DNA of 64,000 bases, from IMG/VR virus record IMGVR_UViG_3300030419_003252, positions 20,544 through 84,543 of that record; one strand, written 5' to 3'. Position numbers and translations under genes: made by a program. Below, in pieces: positions 43,335 through 46,715 of the stretch (within the stretch, counting starts at the first letter, position 1; each line of letters opens with the position of its first letter). The stretch comes from a virus. Under the pieces are notes generated by a model that was not told where the DNA came from, searched no databases, and was given only the letters and a program-made list of their open reading frames with translations.

Positions 43335-43517
43335 TTAATAGCCAAGCTTGTCACAAAGAACTCTAAACTTGTCAGGGTTCTTTGCGATGTAGTTTGGGTT
43401 ATCACAATCACGTTGCAATACGAAACGCATTGAAGTGAGTGATGATAGGGGTAATATAACTGCTACTGAAAGCATAAAGATGCAAGCAGTCATAAAAATT
43501 TTAGTGTGATTTTCCAT
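43335..43517 (-). CDS. Small exported or membrane protein
   Basis: A 60-residue protein (MENHTKIFMTACIFMLSVAV). Residues 7-28 are hydrophobic (signal peptide or anchor), followed by a polar part with two Cys (QRDCDNPNYIAKNPDKFRVL, then CDKLGY). The pattern is close to that of a 63-residue protein at 44845-45036, whose C-terminus also has CDDFGYP, so the two are probably related. Function unknown. Confidence 0.6.
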   Translation of the reverse strand: MENHTKIFMTACIFMLSVAVILPLSSLTSMRFVLQRDCDNPNYIAKNPDKFRVLCDKLGY

Positions 43518-43535
43518 AGGATTAAATCAACAATA

Positions 43536-43574
43536 GAGGGAAAGAATCCCTCAGTCTGCCCCCGAAGGAGCAGA
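43536..43574 (-). other. Tandem hairpins with UUCG tetraloop
   Basis: On the minus strand an 8-bp stem TCTGCTCC/GGGGCAGA closed by a TTCG loop (43555-43574) is followed by GAGGG/CCCTC with a 7-base loop (43536-43552). They fill the gap between the gene ending at 43585 and the gene starting at 43517. C(UUCG)G hairpins are very stable. There is no T-run. Confidence 0.65.
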
Positions 43575-43584
43575 GGGAGAGAAT

Positions 43585-43839
43585 CTAGATGTGCTCTTCA
43601 AATATGCCATCAACCATGGATTGATAGTAGTAATTCTGCATTTCGGATTTCATATCCAAGAGTCTTGTTGTTGGAGGTAACTCTTTCGAGTCAATCCTCC
43701 TCCAAGTCTTAGAGAAATCACTGAAGAACTCAAGGTGTAACCAGAGTTGTTCAAATTTAGAATTAGGCTGCTTATCAATATTCCAGAAGACACGTTGATC
43801 TTCTTGGGGTTGGTAATAGCAGGATGTGAAGTGTTCCAT
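43585..43839 (-). CDS. Small protein, unknown
   Basis: An 84-residue protein from the ATG at 43839 (MEHFTSCYYQPQEDQRVFWN). It is aromatic and charged, with FEQLWLHLEFFSDFSKTWRR. It starts just past the stop of the gene upstream, so the two are coupled. No family is recognised. Confidence 0.5.
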   Translation of the reverse strand: MEHFTSCYYQPQEDQRVFWNIDKQPNSKFEQLWLHLEFFSDFSKTWRRIDSKELPPTTRLLDMKSEMQNYYYQSMVDGIFEEHI

Positions 43840-43840
43840 C

Positions 43841-44227
43841 TTAGAAAAGGATGCCCCAGATGAATACAACAGCGGCAAGCACAAGTGCAAAGTCACGCTC
43901 TTGTCTTAAATCATCAATTGTTTTGGCATCCTCAGCCTGTATTACACAAGCTTCATCAATGATGTCGGCTTTCAAGGATTTCTCAGTGATCTCCTGGATA
44001 GGTTCTACTGATACTTCCTTAGCTTTAGACACCTTGGGAGCTTGTATTTTCACAGGCTCTACAATCTTCTTAACTGCTTCTAACTCTTTGAGCTGTTGCT
44101 CTAGAGGAGTAGCAATTGCAAGTTGAGCTTGAAGGTCTTCCTTAGCTTGAGCAATTTCTGCTTCAATAGGATGAACAGCATGTTTTGCAACAGGGTTGTT
44201 CTTACGACTTCTAGTTCTTCGTGCCAT
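43841..44227 (-). CDS. Membrane-anchored coiled-coil protein
   Basis: A 128-residue protein from the ATG at 44227 (MARRTRSRKNNPVAKHAVHP). The N-terminus is basic, the middle is a coiled coil (EAEIAQAKEDLQAQLAIATP to EQQLKELEAVKKIVEPVKI), and the C-terminus ends in one membrane helix (FALVLAAVVFIWGILF). C-terminal anchoring with a cytoplasmic coiled coil suggests a scaffold at the inner membrane. Leader CAATTCAATTC precedes the start. Confidence 0.6.
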   Translation of the reverse strand: MARRTRSRKNNPVAKHAVHPIEAEIAQAKEDLQAQLAIATPLEQQLKELEAVKKIVEPVKIQAPKVSKAKEVSVEPIQEITEKSLKADIIDEACVIQAEDAKTIDDLRQERDFALVLAAVVFIWGILF

Positions 44228-44255
44228 AGGAATTGAATTGTAGTTGAGTAGTGTG

Positions 44256-44285
44256 GTCGGACTAGTTCCACTAATTAAAGTCCAA
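44256..44285 (-). other. Second hairpin of junction 6 (GGACT/AGTCC)
   Basis: Minus-strand GGACT and AGTCC flank TTTAATTAGTGGAACT-type sequence. It is nearly the same as the hairpin at 44780-44806 (GTATTGGACTyTAAyyAGTG core), which shows a duplicated element. It lies about 30 bases before the start at 44227. Confidence 0.55.
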
Positions 44286-44287
44286 TA

Positions 44288-44332
44288 CGAGGGAGGGGAG
44301 TTGAACCCCTCCAAAGATGCCTACATCTCTCG
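44288..44332 (-). other. T-loop minihelix, junction 6
   Basis: On the minus strand CGAG (44332-44329, inside the last codons of the SSB gene) pairs with CTCG (44291-44288). Inside is a perfect 7-bp hairpin GGAGGGG/CCCCTCC with loop TTCAACT, which fits the tRNA T-loop consensus TTCRANY. There is no anticodon or D arm, so it is not a tRNA gene. Confidence 0.7.
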
Positions 44333-44758
44333 GTTAGCCATTGATACGCCAACATTGCCAGCGCAATCAGTAGCTATTGTTCCACCAGAAGCTTTCGCCT
44401 CTGCTGTCGCTTCAGCTAATTCACGTAGTTCTCTACTGATCTTTCCAAGACCATTATCGACTGAACGTGAAGAGGTGACAACAACCTGATACCTACCACG
44501 AGGTTCTCCAGTATTCTTGTCAGTCCAAGTGTTGTAGGAGTTACGTGTCGTTAAGGCAATGTTATCGCCTTTGTTGAAACGTTCGGAGATCTTCTTACCA
44601 TCGCCATTGAAAGCAATGACAGGTTGAGCGGATTCTCCGTCTCTAGAACCCATTGGGATGACACGGAATTCAGTGATGGCTACACCATCCTTTGGATAAC
44701 GTGTGGTGATGTCGGTCACGATGCGACCTACAAGAGTACCTTGGTTGAATACAGACAT
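44321..44758 (-). CDS. ssb: Single-stranded DNA-binding protein, SSB type
   Basis: A 145-residue protein from the ATG at 44758 (MSVFNQGTLVGRIVTDITTR). LVGRIVTDITTRYPKDGVAI then FRVIPMGSRDGESAQPVIAF, NKGDNIALTTRNSYNTWTDK and YQVVVTSSRS reproduce the strand order of bacterial SSB OB folds. It lacks the acidic DDxPF tip and ends SMANREM, so it may not recruit host partners, in contrast to the 278-residue candidate at 30396. Leader CACAATTCAAATCAGCTC precedes the start. The last codons form the outer stem of a minihelix. Confidence 0.75.
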   Translation of the reverse strand: MSVFNQGTLVGRIVTDITTRYPKDGVAITEFRVIPMGSRDGESAQPVIAFNGDGKKISERFNKGDNIALTTRNSYNTWTDKNTGEPRGRYQVVVTSSRSVDNGLGKISRELRELAEATAEAKASGGTIATDCAGNVGVSMANREM

Positions 44759-44779
44759 GAGCTGATTTGAATTGTGTGG

Positions 44780-44806
44780 CTGGACTAGTTCCACTGGTTA
44801 GAGTCC
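44780..44806 (-). other. Second hairpin of junction 5 (GGACT/AGTCC)
   Basis: On the minus strand TGGACT and AGTCCA flank a region nearly identical to that at 44256-44285. It lies about 22 bases before the SSB start. Confidence 0.55.
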
Positions 44807-44810
44807 AATA

Positions 44811-44855
44811 CCAAGCCAGGAGATTTGATCTCCCAGCATCACGCTTATGACTTGG
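44811..44855 (-). other. T-loop minihelix, junction 5
   Basis: On the minus strand CCAAG (44855-44851, end of the upstream gene) pairs with CTTGG (44815-44811). The inner hairpin GGGAG/CTCCT has a 7-base loop ATCAAAT, similar to a T-loop at positions 2-7. Confidence 0.6.
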
Positions 44856-45036
44856 TTGGGTATCCAAAATCATCACAGAAGTTGAGATGATTCTGGTGTA
44901 AGTGTTCAGGCCAATCATGTGTAAGGCACTGATGAGCAGTAGCCTTATCAATTAGATGACCAATCACAGAGGGAATGCCTATAAAGAAAGCTGCCGTAGC
45001 AGCTACTGATAGAACAGCTTTATAAGGGGTAGGCAT
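44845..45036 (-). CDS. Small exported or membrane protein
   Basis: A 63-residue protein (MPTPYKAVLSVAATAAFFIG) with a hydrophobic helix at residues 7-29 and a His/Cys-rich polar tail (CLTHDWPEHLHQNHLNFCDD, then FGYPTKS). It resembles the protein at 43335-43517 in layout and in the C-terminal CDxxGYP motif. The start is 5 bases after a hairpin-T-run. Function unknown. Confidence 0.6.
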   Translation of the reverse strand: MPTPYKAVLSVAATAAFFIGIPSVIGHLIDKATAHQCLTHDWPEHLHQNHLNFCDDFGYPTKS

Positions 45037-45040
45037 GGTT

Positions 45041-45066
45041 AAAAAAAACTACTCTCAGCGAGTAGT
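45041..45066 (-). terminator. Terminator-like hairpin beside a start codon
   Basis: Minus-strand ACTACTC/GAGTAGT (7 bp, loop GCTGA) is followed by eight Ts, the form of an intrinsic terminator. The T-run ends only 4 bases before the ATG at 45036. It may attenuate transcription or shape the ribosome site. It resembles the hairpins at 45528-45546 and 45288-45304, which lack the T-run. Confidence 0.6.
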
Positions 45067-45069
45067 AAT

Positions 45070-45110
45070 ACCGAGGGAGGGGAATCGAACCCCTCCTTCA
45101 CCTTCTCGGT
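45070..45110 (-). other. T-loop minihelix, junction 4
   Basis: Best example. A 6-bp outer stem ACCGAG/CTCGGT begins at the last base of the upstream gene (45110). It encloses a perfect 7-bp hairpin GGAGGGG/CCCCTCC with loop TTCGATT, an exact TTCRANY match. It is followed 3 bases later by the terminator-like hairpin. Confidence 0.75.
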
Positions 45111-45274
45111 TAGTGAATCAACTTTGGATCAGATACAAGATTAGTGATCCATGCATCCCATTCCTCTGGGGAGAAATTATCTGCAACGATCTTTGGAAAA
45201 TCTTGTGCAATGAGTCCAAGATCCTTAAGGATTCTTGTGTCATGTTTAAATCTACGTTGATTTGAGTTAGCCAT
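45110..45274 (-). CDS. Small protein, unknown
   Basis: A 54-residue protein from the ATG at 45274 (MANSNQRRFKHDTRILKDLG). It has one basic helix and an acidic helix (NFSPEEWDAWITNLVSDPKL). A longer frame upstream runs through a hairpin and is unlikely. The leader is TTTATTCAGCTCA. Function unknown. Confidence 0.55.
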   Translation of the reverse strand: MANSNQRRFKHDTRILKDLGLIAQDFPKIVADNFSPEEWDAWITNLVSDPKLIH

Positions 45275-45287
45275 TGAGCTGAATAAA

Positions 45288-45304
45288 CCATCCTCAGTGG
45301 ATGG
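45288..45304 (-). other. Second hairpin of junction 3 (RCTGA loop)
   Basis: CCATCC/GGATGG with loop ACTGA on the minus strand, 13 bases before the ATG at 45274. The 5-base loop is the same as in the hairpin at 45528-45546. Confidence 0.6.
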
Positions 45305-45308
45305 CAAT

Positions 45309-45353
45309 GGATAAGGGAGGGATTGCACCTCCCACTAGCCTTACGCTTTATCC
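45309..45353 (-). other. T-loop minihelix, junction 3
   Basis: Outer stem GGATAA/TTATCC, beginning in the last codons (GAG GAT AAA) of the upstream gene and spanning its stop. The inner 6-bp hairpin GGGAGG/CCTCCC has loop TGCAATC. Confidence 0.7.
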
Positions 45354-45517
45354 TCTTCCTTAGCAGCAGGAAGTTGTGGTTCCGTGTAGATCATCTGGGC
45401 GATGCCTCTACGGAGATCTCTAGTAGCAGTTCTAATTTGCTTAGGGTTTTCAATGACATCACCTGTCATATGGAATCCTTTAGCAACTATGCTCTGTACT
45501 TTAGATAAGATCTTCAT
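45341..45517 (-). CDS. Small protein, unknown
   Basis: A 58-residue protein, MKILSKVQSIVAKGFHMTGD then VIENPKQIRTATRDLRRGIA and ending PQLPAAKEEDKA. It is helical and basic with an acidic tail. It is embedded between two complex intercistronic RNA structures. Codons and tight spacing suggest that it is real. Function unknown. Confidence 0.55.
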   Translation of the reverse strand: MKILSKVQSIVAKGFHMTGDVIENPKQIRTATRDLRRGIAQMIYTEPQLPAAKEEDKA

Positions 45518-45527
45518 TGGTTTAATG

Positions 45528-45546
45528 ACTACTCTCAGTGAGTAGT
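45528..45546 (-). other. Second hairpin of junction 2 (RCTGA loop)
   Basis: ACTACTC/GAGTAGT with loop ACTGA on the minus strand, 10 bases before the ATG at 45517. It has the same stem as the terminator-like hairpin at 45041-45066 but lacks a T-run. Confidence 0.65.
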
Positions 45547-45550
45547 AATG

Positions 45551-45593
45551 GCTATTGGGGGAGTTGCACCCCCCATGCCCCTAACGGGATAGC
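45551..45593 (-). other. T-loop minihelix, junction 2
   Basis: Outer stem GCTAT/ATAGC on the minus strand, with the 5' side in the last codons (AAG CTA TCC) of the upstream gene. The inner stem GGGGG/CCCCC has a 7-base loop TGCAACT. Confidence 0.7.
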
Positions 45594-45796
45594 TTTAGGC
45601 GTATGCCTACGTCACATTTCTCTGCATATGCCCGTGTTGAAAAATCACCACTGAGCATTGCAATACGAGCGTTAACTTCGCCTAAGAAGGCAGCAGTACT
45701 GATATTAGAAATATCAGCTGAGTTAACGATGACGTTAAAACCGTTCAATAGGTTTCCAGCTGCTTGCCAGCATCTGTTCCAGAAGAGATCGGTCAT
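45581..45796 (-). CDS. Small protein, unknown
   Basis: A 71-residue protein (MTDLFWNRCWQAAGNLLNGF), mostly helical, Ala-rich and with a basic end (KCDVGIRLKLSR). The last codons form part of the junction 2 minihelix. Function unknown. Confidence 0.55.
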   Translation of the reverse strand: MTDLFWNRCWQAAGNLLNGFNVIVNSADISNISTAAFLGEVNARIAMLSGDFSTRAYAEKCDVGIRLKLSR

Positions 45797-45819
45797 TGTT
45801 TGGATAACTCCAAAGGTGT

Positions 45820-45841
45820 GGTACCTATCTCCACGGGAGGT
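45820..45841 (-). other. Second hairpin of junction 1
   Basis: On the minus strand TACCT and AGGTA flank CTCC/GGAG. It has no RCTGA loop, but occupies the same place between minihelix and next start. Confidence 0.4.
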
Positions 45842-45844
45842 AAG

Positions 45845-45887
45845 ACTGAGGGAAGGGAGTTGAACCCCTCCTTAAAACCCACTCAGT
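45845..45887 (-). other. T-loop minihelix, junction 1
   Basis: Outer stem ACTGAG/CTCAGT starts in the last sense codon and stop (AAC TGA) of the upstream gene. The inner 7-bp hairpin GGAGGGG/CCCTTCC has one G-U pair and loop TTCAACT, an exact T-loop consensus. Confidence 0.7.
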
Positions 45888-46017
45888 TAGTTGGTACATA
45901 TGAATGCCATGAGCCGCTGTAATGATGAGTAGCAAAGGCCATTCCTATGCAGAAGACTGCAAATGGAATTGGATGCTCGTCAATCATGTAAGCGAAAGCT
46001 GCAAAGATGCGATTCAT
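45883..46017 (-). CDS. Small membrane-like protein, first gene of the minus block
   Basis: A 44-residue protein, MNRIFAAFAYMIDEHPIPFA then VFCIGMAFATHHYSGSWHSY. Two short hydrophobic segments (residues 4-12 and 18-30) and aromatic/His residues suggest membrane association. AAGGAG lies before the start. It is the first gene after the putative origin, so its transcript carries the leader hairpin at 46052-46083. Function unknown. Confidence 0.6.
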   Translation of the reverse strand: MNRIFAAFAYMIDEHPIPFAVFCIGMAFATHHYSGSWHSYVPTN

Positions 46018-46051
46018 TTAAGTAACTCCTTGAGTTGAAGTGAACAAAAGC

Positions 46052-46083
46052 CTGGGCTTACAACTGCTTACGCAGAACGCCAG
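46052..46083 (-). promoter_or_regulatory. GTAAGTCC-family leader hairpin 6
   Basis: CTGG/CCAG outer stem with a CTGC/GCAG inner hairpin, then TTGTAAGCCCAG on the minus strand. It lies at the probable 5' end of the long minus-strand transcript that starts near 46090. Confidence 0.55.
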
Positions 46084-46093
46084 AGTTATTACA

Positions 46094-46117
46094 GTTCTAT
46101 ATAACGTTTGTCAGGCG
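46094..46117 (-). promoter_or_regulatory. Minus-strand promoter candidate
   Basis: The minus strand reads CTGACA, then AACGTTATATAGAACTGTAA. TATATA or TGTAAT could be the -10 with a short spacer. A promoter is expected here because the minus block starts downstream. The motif ACGTTnTATA also occurs in the intergenic region at 41270-41318. Confidence 0.35.
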
Positions 46118-46146
46118 ACGATTCTCTCCCCAATTTCGGGCGCAAC

Positions 46147-46188
46147 TGTGGAAAAACTCAGGGATTTTGTGGAAAAACCTGTGGAATT
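46147..46188 (-). promoter_or_regulatory. DnaA-box-like cluster
   Basis: Two copies of TTTTCCACA on the minus strand, 21 bases apart start to start, plus AATTCCACA. They are in one orientation and on one face of the helix. Confidence 0.6.
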
Positions 46189-46284
46189 CAGAGGAGAATG
46201 TCTGTGAAACGGAACATTCGACTCGGCGCGTTCTCTTCGCCGAAATCGGCGGCGTTCACCACGTCTCGTCGGTGAGAATGTATA

Positions 46285-46315
46285 AGTAGGGGGCTTCGCC
46301 CTTTCTTTTTTTCTA
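46285..46315 (+). terminator. Terminator-like hairpin, plus strand
   Basis: GGGGGC, loop TTC, GCCCTT, then TCTTTTTTTC. Four G-C pairs plus G-U pairs with a T-run form a plausible intrinsic terminator. No plus-strand gene precedes it, so it might stop leftover transcription across the origin or end a short origin transcript. Confidence 0.45.
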
Positions 46316-46505
46316 TGCGGGTTTATATTCAGGAGGCTGTTGGGAGACTACTCAGATAATTTTTCACCCTATTTGAGGTATACACGGCCCAATTTTTTGA
46401 ACAAAAAGTCTAATTTTGTAGCGAAATTCCCCAATTAGCCCAAGAATGGGGCCAAAAAGTGCGGATGCTAAATATTACTTAACCTAAATATTACTAATCG
46501 TTGAC

Positions 46506-46715
46506 TTATACAAGTACGTTCTTATATTTACCTGCAGCTTTTACAGCTTTACGGAAAGCTTCTTCATCTGGAACTTCAAATGCGAGTTCTCTTTTAGCAG
46601 AATTGATAAAATCTTTAACGGTAAGGTCATCTTCACCACCAACGGACATTTCCAAAGCCTTATCCTTTATGGCTTCCATCGCCTCCACTCTCTTCATTCG
46701 TGTATTAGCGTCCAT
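46506..46715 (-). CDS. Small helical protein, unknown
   Basis: A 69-residue protein (MDANTRMKRVEAMEAIKDKA). It is helical, with acidic and basic residues mixed, and ends KAVKAAGKYKNVLV. It is the last minus gene, divergent from the plus-strand virion block. Function unknown. Confidence 0.6.
   Translation of the reverse strand: MDANTRMKRVEAMEAIKDKALEMSVGGEDDLTVKDFINSAKRELAFEVPDEEAFRKAVKAAGKYKNVLV

Follow-up and report, generated by a model that had tools for sequence, protein, structure and literature searches.

A tRNA-minihelix-like RNA element at consecutive gene junctions of cyanophages

What is the role of a small RNA fold, built like the acceptor and T arms of transfer RNA (tRNA), that recurs at six gene junctions in a row in a viral genome? 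The question is raised by a 64.0-kb stretch of DNA (hereafter the window, the whole of the sequence analysed) out of an 84.5-kb IMG/VR virus record, IMGVR_UViG_3300030419_003252, in which seven open reading frames (ORFs) delimit six junctions, each with one element on the minus strand, within a series of small genes read leftward, among them a gene for a single-stranded DNA-binding protein. Because the large terminase encoded in the window shares 80% identity with its counterpart in Synechococcus phage S-EIV1, and the DNA polymerase 59%, the source of the window is, judged by these proteins, an EIV1-like cyanophage with a presumed host to match. Here we confirm that the element is a structured RNA of cyanophages, real and widespread, and weigh what it may do at the ends of genes.

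The six elements (J1 to J6) and the structures directly after them are as follows, L004/L135 being the closest related array found.

45845..45887, minus strand: J1, acceptor ACTGAG/CTCAGT with the stop codon TGA inside, 10-nt linker, T-arm GGAGGGG-TTCAACT-CCCTTCC
45818..45842, minus strand: pseudoknot after J1, TACCT/AGGTA, its loop GTGG pairing with a downstream CCAC; same form in L004
45551..45593, minus strand: J2, acceptor GCTAT/ATAGC, central hairpin CCC-GTTA-GGG, T-arm GGGGG-TGCAACT-CCCCC
45528..45546, minus strand: hairpin after J2, ACTACT-CACTGAG-AGTAGT, also in three viral loci, with R at one place
45309..45353, minus strand: J3, acceptor GGATAA/TTATCC, central hairpin AGC-GTAAG-GCT, T-arm GGGAGG-TGCAATC-CCTCCC
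45287..45305, minus strand: hairpin after J3, GCCATC-CACTGAG-GATGGT
45070..45110, minus strand: J4, acceptor ACCGAG/CTCGGT, 8-nt linker without a hairpin, T-arm GGAGGGG-TTCGATT-CCCCTCC
45048..45066, minus strand: hairpin after J4, ACTACT-CGCTGAG-AGTAGT, then a terminator-like T run
44810..44856, minus strand: J5, acceptor ACCAAG/CTTGGT (extended to 8 bp by TC/GG in the predicted fold), central hairpin AGC-GTGAT-GCT, T-arm GGGAG-ATCAAAT-CTCCT
44776..44806, minus strand: pseudoknot after J5, GGACT/AGTCC plus GTGG/CCAC; same form ahead of the homologous gene in L004
44288..44332, minus strand: J6, acceptor CGAG/CTCG, central hairpin AGATG-TAGG-CATCT, T-arm GGAGGGG-TTCAACT-CCCCTCC
44253..44283, minus strand: pseudoknot after J6, GGACT/AGTCC plus GTGG/CCAC

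An initial annotation, made from the window alone, had described six minus-strand hairpins, one per junction, and all are present with the loops it quoted (T-loop starts at 45864, 45568, 45327, 45089, 44829 and 44305); three of the six loops fit the full tRNA consensus TTCRANY and the other three its CRANY part only, as it had stated. The outer stems it quoted hold for five copies, the sixth (44288-44332) having only CGAG/CTCG, and its range of 5-7 bp for the T-stem is exceeded at 44829, where 8 positions are complementary. RNAfold predicts the acceptor and T-arm stems in 6/6 window copies and a short central hairpin in 4/6; the absence of a D arm, which the annotation had taken as a rule, therefore does not describe the element, most copies of which fold as a three-way junction. 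The z-scores of the six copies (-0.70, -0.90, -2.61, -2.55, -3.10, -2.38) show that folding energy alone is weak for two of them and would not settle the question, and the minimum-energy folds of J2 and J5 also pair T-loop bases, leaving loops of 6 and 3 nt. Each window copy is followed by an HTT linker and a pseudoknot or hairpin, neither of which figured in the earlier description. A descriptor combining the T-loop NNCRANY, a GC-rich T-stem and an acceptor stem matches the window six times, always in the array, with no match on the plus strand; ARAGORN finds no tRNA gene in the window.

The fold was tested independently with a search pattern, pattern A, that contained nothing but the central hairpin found in the commonest class (TGATCCGTNNAAGCGGGT); the window copies have other centres. 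The pattern retrieved at least 120 matching stretches from viral contigs, and 119 loci were reduced to 84 distinct 47-mers, 75 of them with the T-loop at the expected place. The nine excluded before pairs were counted, for want of an NNCRANY loop at that fixed place, are mostly chance-like, and one (L176) looks like a real copy that is shifted. Among the 75 copies, T-stem cells comprise 512 Watson-Crick, 12 G-U and 1 A-C of 525, and acceptor cells 310 Watson-Crick, 45 G-U, 4 A-C and 16 other of 375. When the 3' strand is slid by one to three bases, pairing across all 84 sequences falls from 94% to at most 61% in the T-stem and from 88% to at most 54% in the acceptor stem. For 36 rows picked by hand from the 75, in which the central hairpin is uninformative because the search pattern fixed it, the covariation score was 0.571 against 0.160 +/- 0.016 in shuffled alignments, none of 500 shuffles reaching the observed value; nine pairs show change on both sides, a number reached in 4 of 500 shuffles. 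Since G-U pairs outnumber A-C pairs by 57 to 5 in the 75 copies, the selected strand is the message strand. The fold is real and acts as a sense-strand RNA, and its covariation bears out the selection on a tRNA-minihelix-like structure that had been proposed from the window.

Two of the refuting conditions that the initial annotation had set were examined in related phages, and neither held: pairs covary, and the element is conserved in homologous junctions. The L004/L135 array, whose single-stranded DNA-binding protein is 87% identical to that of the window, holds all six elements and one more, with an extra whole cassette after J5 in L135. Paired changes separate the two arrays directly, the outermost acceptor pair of J3 being G-C in the window and T-A in L004, and one T-stem pair of J5 being A-T and G-C, respectively. 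Over 19 sources, picked because matches were present in them, the descriptor gave 52 matches on the operon strand and 0 on the opposite strand, against 4 on both strands of one triplet-shuffled set of the same sources. A first full run over 87 of 91 loci (four duplicates omitted) was accompanied by 7 matches in shuffled DNA, and those in L009, L036, L055, L062, L065 and L079, with one in L089, look like chance. Interrogation of all loci gave 262 distinct matches, some of them by chance, against 13 in shuffled DNA; HTT[AG] directly follows 219 of the 262, and 3 of those in shuffled DNA. Two copies from L135/L136 were lost from our table of arrays to this HTT filter, and L123 is empty there.

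A covariance model built on seven copies (R1) matched 18 of 38 records at E<=1, including S-EIV1 (43452-43501 and 43746-43795 of KJ410740.1), two copies there that a first hairpin scan had missed, probably owing to its G+C threshold; many of the 20 records without a match appear to stop short of the place where the array is expected. Thirty-eight further records were composed of 26 long ones with the pattern A hairpin, 10 with a second pattern, type B, and those of L005 and L007. R1 matched 30 of them, including all 26 of the pattern A records, a count that is not independent of the pattern, and 28 of the 38 encode a relative of the window terminase, one of them weak (25% identical). The type B pattern retrieved 82 stretches, not sorted singly, part of which are necessarily chance matches. 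The 2.8-kb region found nothing by blastn against phages, and genome contigs scanned with a stringent type A pattern, the one element type sought there, gave no match.

Across these relatives the element has a consistent anatomy. The acceptor and T-stem together measure 12 bp in 158 of the 262 matches, 11 in 61, 13 in 32 and 14-16 in 11, lengths below 11 having been excluded by the descriptor; among the 219 with the linker, the two stems divide as 5+7 in 87, 7+5 in 28 and 6+6 in 26. The tRNA value of 12 bp is held while the split varies. TGCAAAC is the commonest T-loop (86/219). A central hairpin is found in 75% of 96 distinct central regions against 21% of shuffled ones (at a score of 9), and in 50% against 14% of the 42 regions that lack the two common cores; some copies, such as J4, have none and others have two hairpins, close to a cloverleaf. 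An ORF of at least 35 codons precedes the element in 208 of the 219, with its stop codon (TGA 172, TAA 29, TAG 7) inside or overlapping the element in 185 of the 208 and at +1 to +3 of the acceptor strand in 153. Among the pattern A copies, 66 of 75 have A at position 73, 8 have C and 1 has G; U74 follows in 74 and U75 in 71. Beyond this linker, 216 distinct downstream regions hold an H-type pseudoknot in 109 (5 when shuffled), a hairpin only in 90 (2 when shuffled) and neither in 17, the pseudoknot stems taking the forms GCGG/CCGC, GTGG/CCAC, GCAG/CTGC and GGGG/CCCC. Of the 18 arrays read, 8 encode a member of a small-protein family with the motif QC..H.WP, the member being identical in two of them, and six T-loop types stand after its genes; hence the fold is kept at that position and the sequence class is not.

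Several copies and leaders have further structure. ARAGORN, applied to 58 related loci, called one element a tRNA: the element forms the end of a 95-nt tRNA of unknown identity at L133:2769-2863 (L169:13268-13362 of the same record). At L005:6200-6290 a near-complete tRNA-like cloverleaf, with four helices by eye and no ARAGORN call, lies ahead of the first small ORF. The leaders of L033, L124, L127, L133 and L134 have, by eye, hairpins past the pseudoknot that hold GGAG and the start codon, for example CATGGA-GATA-TCCATG and ACAGGA-TCCTGT, resembling a switch over translation.

A second genomic setting was revealed by blastn with a composite query, which placed the element in S-EIV1 and also in the T7-like cyanophages S-SBP1 and S-CBP42, just ahead of the major capsid gene. 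This capsid slot was taken from 20 of 43 matching records, some of them near-duplicates. It holds the element in 8 of the 20 (S-SBP1, S-CBP42, S-TIP37, S-CBP3, P-SSP2, P-SSP3, P-SSP7 and one uncultured relative), six being recognised by script and S-CBP42 and S-CBP3 with reading by eye. The pairing that the script gives for S-CBP3 is unlike that read by eye, the fold predicted for S-TIP37 differs over a range that lacked part of the acceptor, and the S-SBP1 loop, TGCAATG, departs from NNCRANY in its last base. The NATL1A-7 slot is filled by a genuine tRNA-Gly (ARAGORN; Rfam tRNA, 70.5 bits) that starts 31 nt past the end of the upstream ORF, so that the minihelix and a true tRNA interchange at the same junction in a single case, 1 of the 20 cyanopodovirus records; a search with this tRNA-Gly revealed no second phage with a tRNA in the slot among the matches listed (30 of 67). 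In 11 slots (L328, L329, L331, L333, L335, L336 and L340-L344) stands a third structure, whose stem varies in sequence around an invariant CACCTCAGAGTCGGA; it has no Rfam match in the six scanned (L328, L329, L331, L333, L335, L336). Within a few bases after the slot structure, the tRNA included, stands TTGG in 19 of the 20, S-CBP42 having TTGC. Seven of the 13 loci scanned (L328-L331, L337-L339) have a Glutamine-II riboswitch, scoring above the gathering threshold, ahead of the small ORF that precedes the slot, and this small ORF therefore lies between riboswitch and slot. A position that can be filled by a minihelix or a true tRNA, and is then followed by unpaired U and the next leader, reads as a processing site.

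The best-supported explanation of the element, which we hold with moderate confidence, is tRNA punctuation: at the fold observed here, a host nuclease, RNase Z or else RNase E, would cut at N73/UU. The genes would share one polycistronic message, in which the end of each gene and the bases past its stop codon would fold into a three-way junction of acceptor-like stem, optional central hairpin and T-arm. The stack of acceptor and T-arm, about 12 bp capped by the T-loop, would be the part read by tRNA end-processing enzymes. The unpaired linker after the helix would be cut by a host nuclease that matures tRNA 3' ends, RNase Z being the likeliest candidate and RNase E the alternative. The upstream message would retain a tRNA-like 3' end as a shield against 3' exonucleases, and the downstream message would begin at or near the pseudoknot or hairpin, which would shield its 5' end and set access to the start site. 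We infer that the genes are transcribed together, and likewise the cleavage, the nuclease responsible and any influence on message stability. That an acceptor/T-arm minihelix is accepted by tRNA end enzymes is described in the available part of PMC3714273. RNase Z, according to the excerpt of PMC7479834 consulted, cleaves just past the discriminator, and cytidines at that point suppress it; C stands at position 74 in one of the 75 copies and at 75 in none. The linker also supplies the U favoured by RNase E, the cyanobacterial form of which prefers U at +2 (PMC10989914, in the section available).

Several observations weigh against tRNA punctuation. Archaeal RNase Zs require a mature 5' end, to judge from the same excerpt of PMC7479834, and the 5' side of the element runs on into the upstream gene. 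At position 2 of the T-loop the commonest class carries G in place of U, off the full tRNA consensus, and loops of the ATCRAAT type may close to fewer bases, as predicted for J5. A test for an elbow contact between TTC-type loops and GG in the linker was not significant (12/18 against 43/100, p 0.076). Replacement by a tRNA was found only once, none of the EIV1-like arrays was seen to include a true tRNA, and the third structure has no tRNA likeness in 11/20 slots. The stop codon in the acceptor strand is left unexplained by processing and hints at translation.

The initial annotation had proposed a site for a tRNA enzyme, which remains plausible, and had named RNase P, which is not supported: 185 of 208 stop codons lie within the element or overlap it, so that a 5' cut would strip them from the message, and the 3' flank is UU and not CCA. 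We accordingly rejected RNase P as the main enzyme. A more speculative extension, which we consider improbable, is that cyanophage lineages share an mRNA punctuation code in which host enzymes would mature the tRNA-like 3' ends, perhaps adding CCA, and in which, because the stop codon lies inside the acceptor strand, the finishing ribosome would gate folding and cutting and so couple translation to release of the message.

Translational control would dispense with cleavage altogether: the terminating ribosome would open the acceptor stem, and the refolded element, with its pseudoknot, would govern re-initiation or access to the start. The position of the stop codon, inside or overlapping in 185/208 and at +1 to +3 of the acceptor strand in 153/208, speaks for such a role, as do the pseudoknot or hairpin ahead of the next gene and, in some leaders, hairpins holding GGAG and the start codon (CATGGA-GATA-TCCATG is one, seen by eye and uncounted). 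The 12-bp length and the T-loop, however, have no obvious part in it, the fixed TGA may stem from a conserved acceptor sequence, and the tRNA in the NATL1A-7 slot begins 31 nt after the upstream ORF; we regard translational control as credible, if unlikely. A role confined to the 3' end, in which the element halts 3' exonucleases or binds a tRNA-binding protein and is not cut, accords with a stable GC-rich fold at gene ends and with the minihelix as a ligand of tRNA enzymes (PMC3714273, within the part available), and leaves the near-invariant UU linker and the directly following pseudoknot or hairpin unexplained; it seems to us doubtful.

Recombination joints in the DNA, comparable to the attC sites of integrons or to PeSL cassettes in T4-type phages, would account for the shuffling of small genes: the window and L135 share J1 and J2, yet the ORFs between them are dissimilar, and L135 has one extra cassette. 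The excess of G-U over A-C pairs (57 against 5) is what is expected of sense RNA and not of a folded bottom DNA strand, Phage_integrase (PF00589) is matched in 0 of 11 EIV1-like records, some of them perhaps incomplete, against 14 of 14 control genomes, and shuffling by homologous recombination may be a by-product. Cassette linkage at the DNA level is on this evidence quite unlikely, and attC-like recombination was rejected on the pair counts and the lack of an integrase match. Terminators or attenuators between the genes are suggested by the T run after the J4 hairpin and by a scan of 44200-46600, in which the two strands together gave 7 terminator-like sites, compared with 2.3 in shuffled sequence; the J5 T-arm, with the tail TTGGTATTGG, is one of the 7. 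No T run follows any of the six T-arm elements, though; the J4 hairpin is one of six following structures; and the operon strand of the junctions holds no sigma-70-like site at which transcription might restart, phage-type promoters lying outside that scan. Termination is thus very improbable as the function of the array.

Should tRNA punctuation be borne out, a mode of processing that we know from mitochondria would also operate on gene clusters of viruses that infect bacteria, here phages whose hosts are among the most abundant photosynthetic cells. The element is a structured RNA family that lacks an Rfam entry, and its presence in the cultured phages S-EIV1, P-SSP7, S-SBP1 and S-TIP37 makes it testable at once. 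The natural swap of minihelix and tRNA offers a ready test of what tRNA enzymes recognise, and of how phages protect their messages as host RNase E rises in infection, a rise described for P-SSP7 in the available part of PMC9692554.

The seven ORFs of the punctuated stretch are:

45883..46017, minus strand: ORF of 44 aa, 98% identity in L135
45581..45796, minus strand: ORF of 71 aa; the L135 ORF between the same two elements lacks BLASTP similarity (E 1e-4)
45341..45517, minus strand: ORF of 58 aa, 95% identity in L135
45110..45280, minus strand: ORF of 56 aa, 80% identity in L135
44845..45036, minus strand: ORF of 63 aa, whose small product includes a hydrophobic stretch; 7 other arrays hold homologues, two of them identical
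44321..44758, minus strand: single-stranded DNA-binding protein gene (PF00436, E 5.1e-09)
43841..44224, minus strand: ORF of 127 aa, the final gene of the punctuated stretch (from the ORF list)

A neighbouring 903-aa protein, used as query, found no relative. Ahead of the first small gene lies a long non-coding leader (about 46050-46450 of the window), which by eye is strongly conserved in L004 (4000-4280). Further along this gene run, junctions carry a different repeated motif, GATTCTCTCCCTCT.CTCCTTCGGGGG, at 43559-43585 of the window (minus strand), at about 7155-7210 of L004 and at about 9950-9990 of L007. The S-EIV1 terminase (L008:25081-27621) contains an insertion of about 338 aa, intein-like in our reading, that is absent from the window terminase, and terminase matches are split in four further records (G050, G051, G062, G072).

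How the element relates to described RNAs can be judged from databases and from known systems. No Rfam 15 family matches the window at gathering score, in line with the initial annotation, which knew of no described class of this design; at E<=1 the five array loci scanned matched SCARNA18 (E 0.27) and tmRNA (E 0.072) and nothing else, neither reaching cut-off, and in 13 cyanopodovirus loci nothing at the element rose above cut-off, the true tRNA excepted. We found no published report of the element in a search of open-licence literature that did not extend to the S-EIV1 genome paper; on that search, it appears unreported so far. In mascRNA and the tRNA-like domain of tmRNA, too, a fold like that of tRNA lacks a normal anticodon arm and is recognised by tRNA enzymes; those, however, are parts of stable non-coding RNAs, whereas the elements here stand in gene junctions, and the only Rfam matches of the tmRNA clan were below threshold (14.1 bits in L135, 14.8 bits in L330). 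The PeSL cassettes of T4-type phages, each an early promoter with a stem-loop, also recur between genes where small genes are shuffled; in the window junctions, a scan that did not take in phage-type promoters found no sigma-70-like site. RNase III sites between the early genes of T7 resemble the element as structured cut sites between phage genes, and differ from it in being long duplexes without a T-loop. The manA, wcaG and PhotoRC-II motifs are cyanophage structured RNAs found by comparison and tied to metabolic or photosynthesis genes (PMC2864571, in the portion available), and none of them matches the elements in Rfam scans.

Close in build are tRNA genes themselves. The tRNA-Gly of NATL1A-7 shares the 12-bp stack of acceptor and T-arm, the T-loop, the U-rich 3' flank and the position before the capsid leader; most elements differ in having no anticodon arm, no CCA is encoded in the DNA, and the window yields no ARAGORN call. 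A close functional parallel is with the t-elements of plant mitochondria, for which the available part of PMC8003010 describes tRNA punctuation, tRNA-like structures defining intergenic cleavage sites. The elements described here belong to cyanobacterial phages, stand several in a row in one gene cluster, carry the stop codon in the acceptor strand and have a pseudoknot or hairpin directly downstream, and we infer cleavage at them. Membership of that class would call for mapped transcript ends; by analogy, the shared feature of a tRNA-like fold at gene junctions suggests that the cyanophage element may work as the plant mitochondrial t-elements do.

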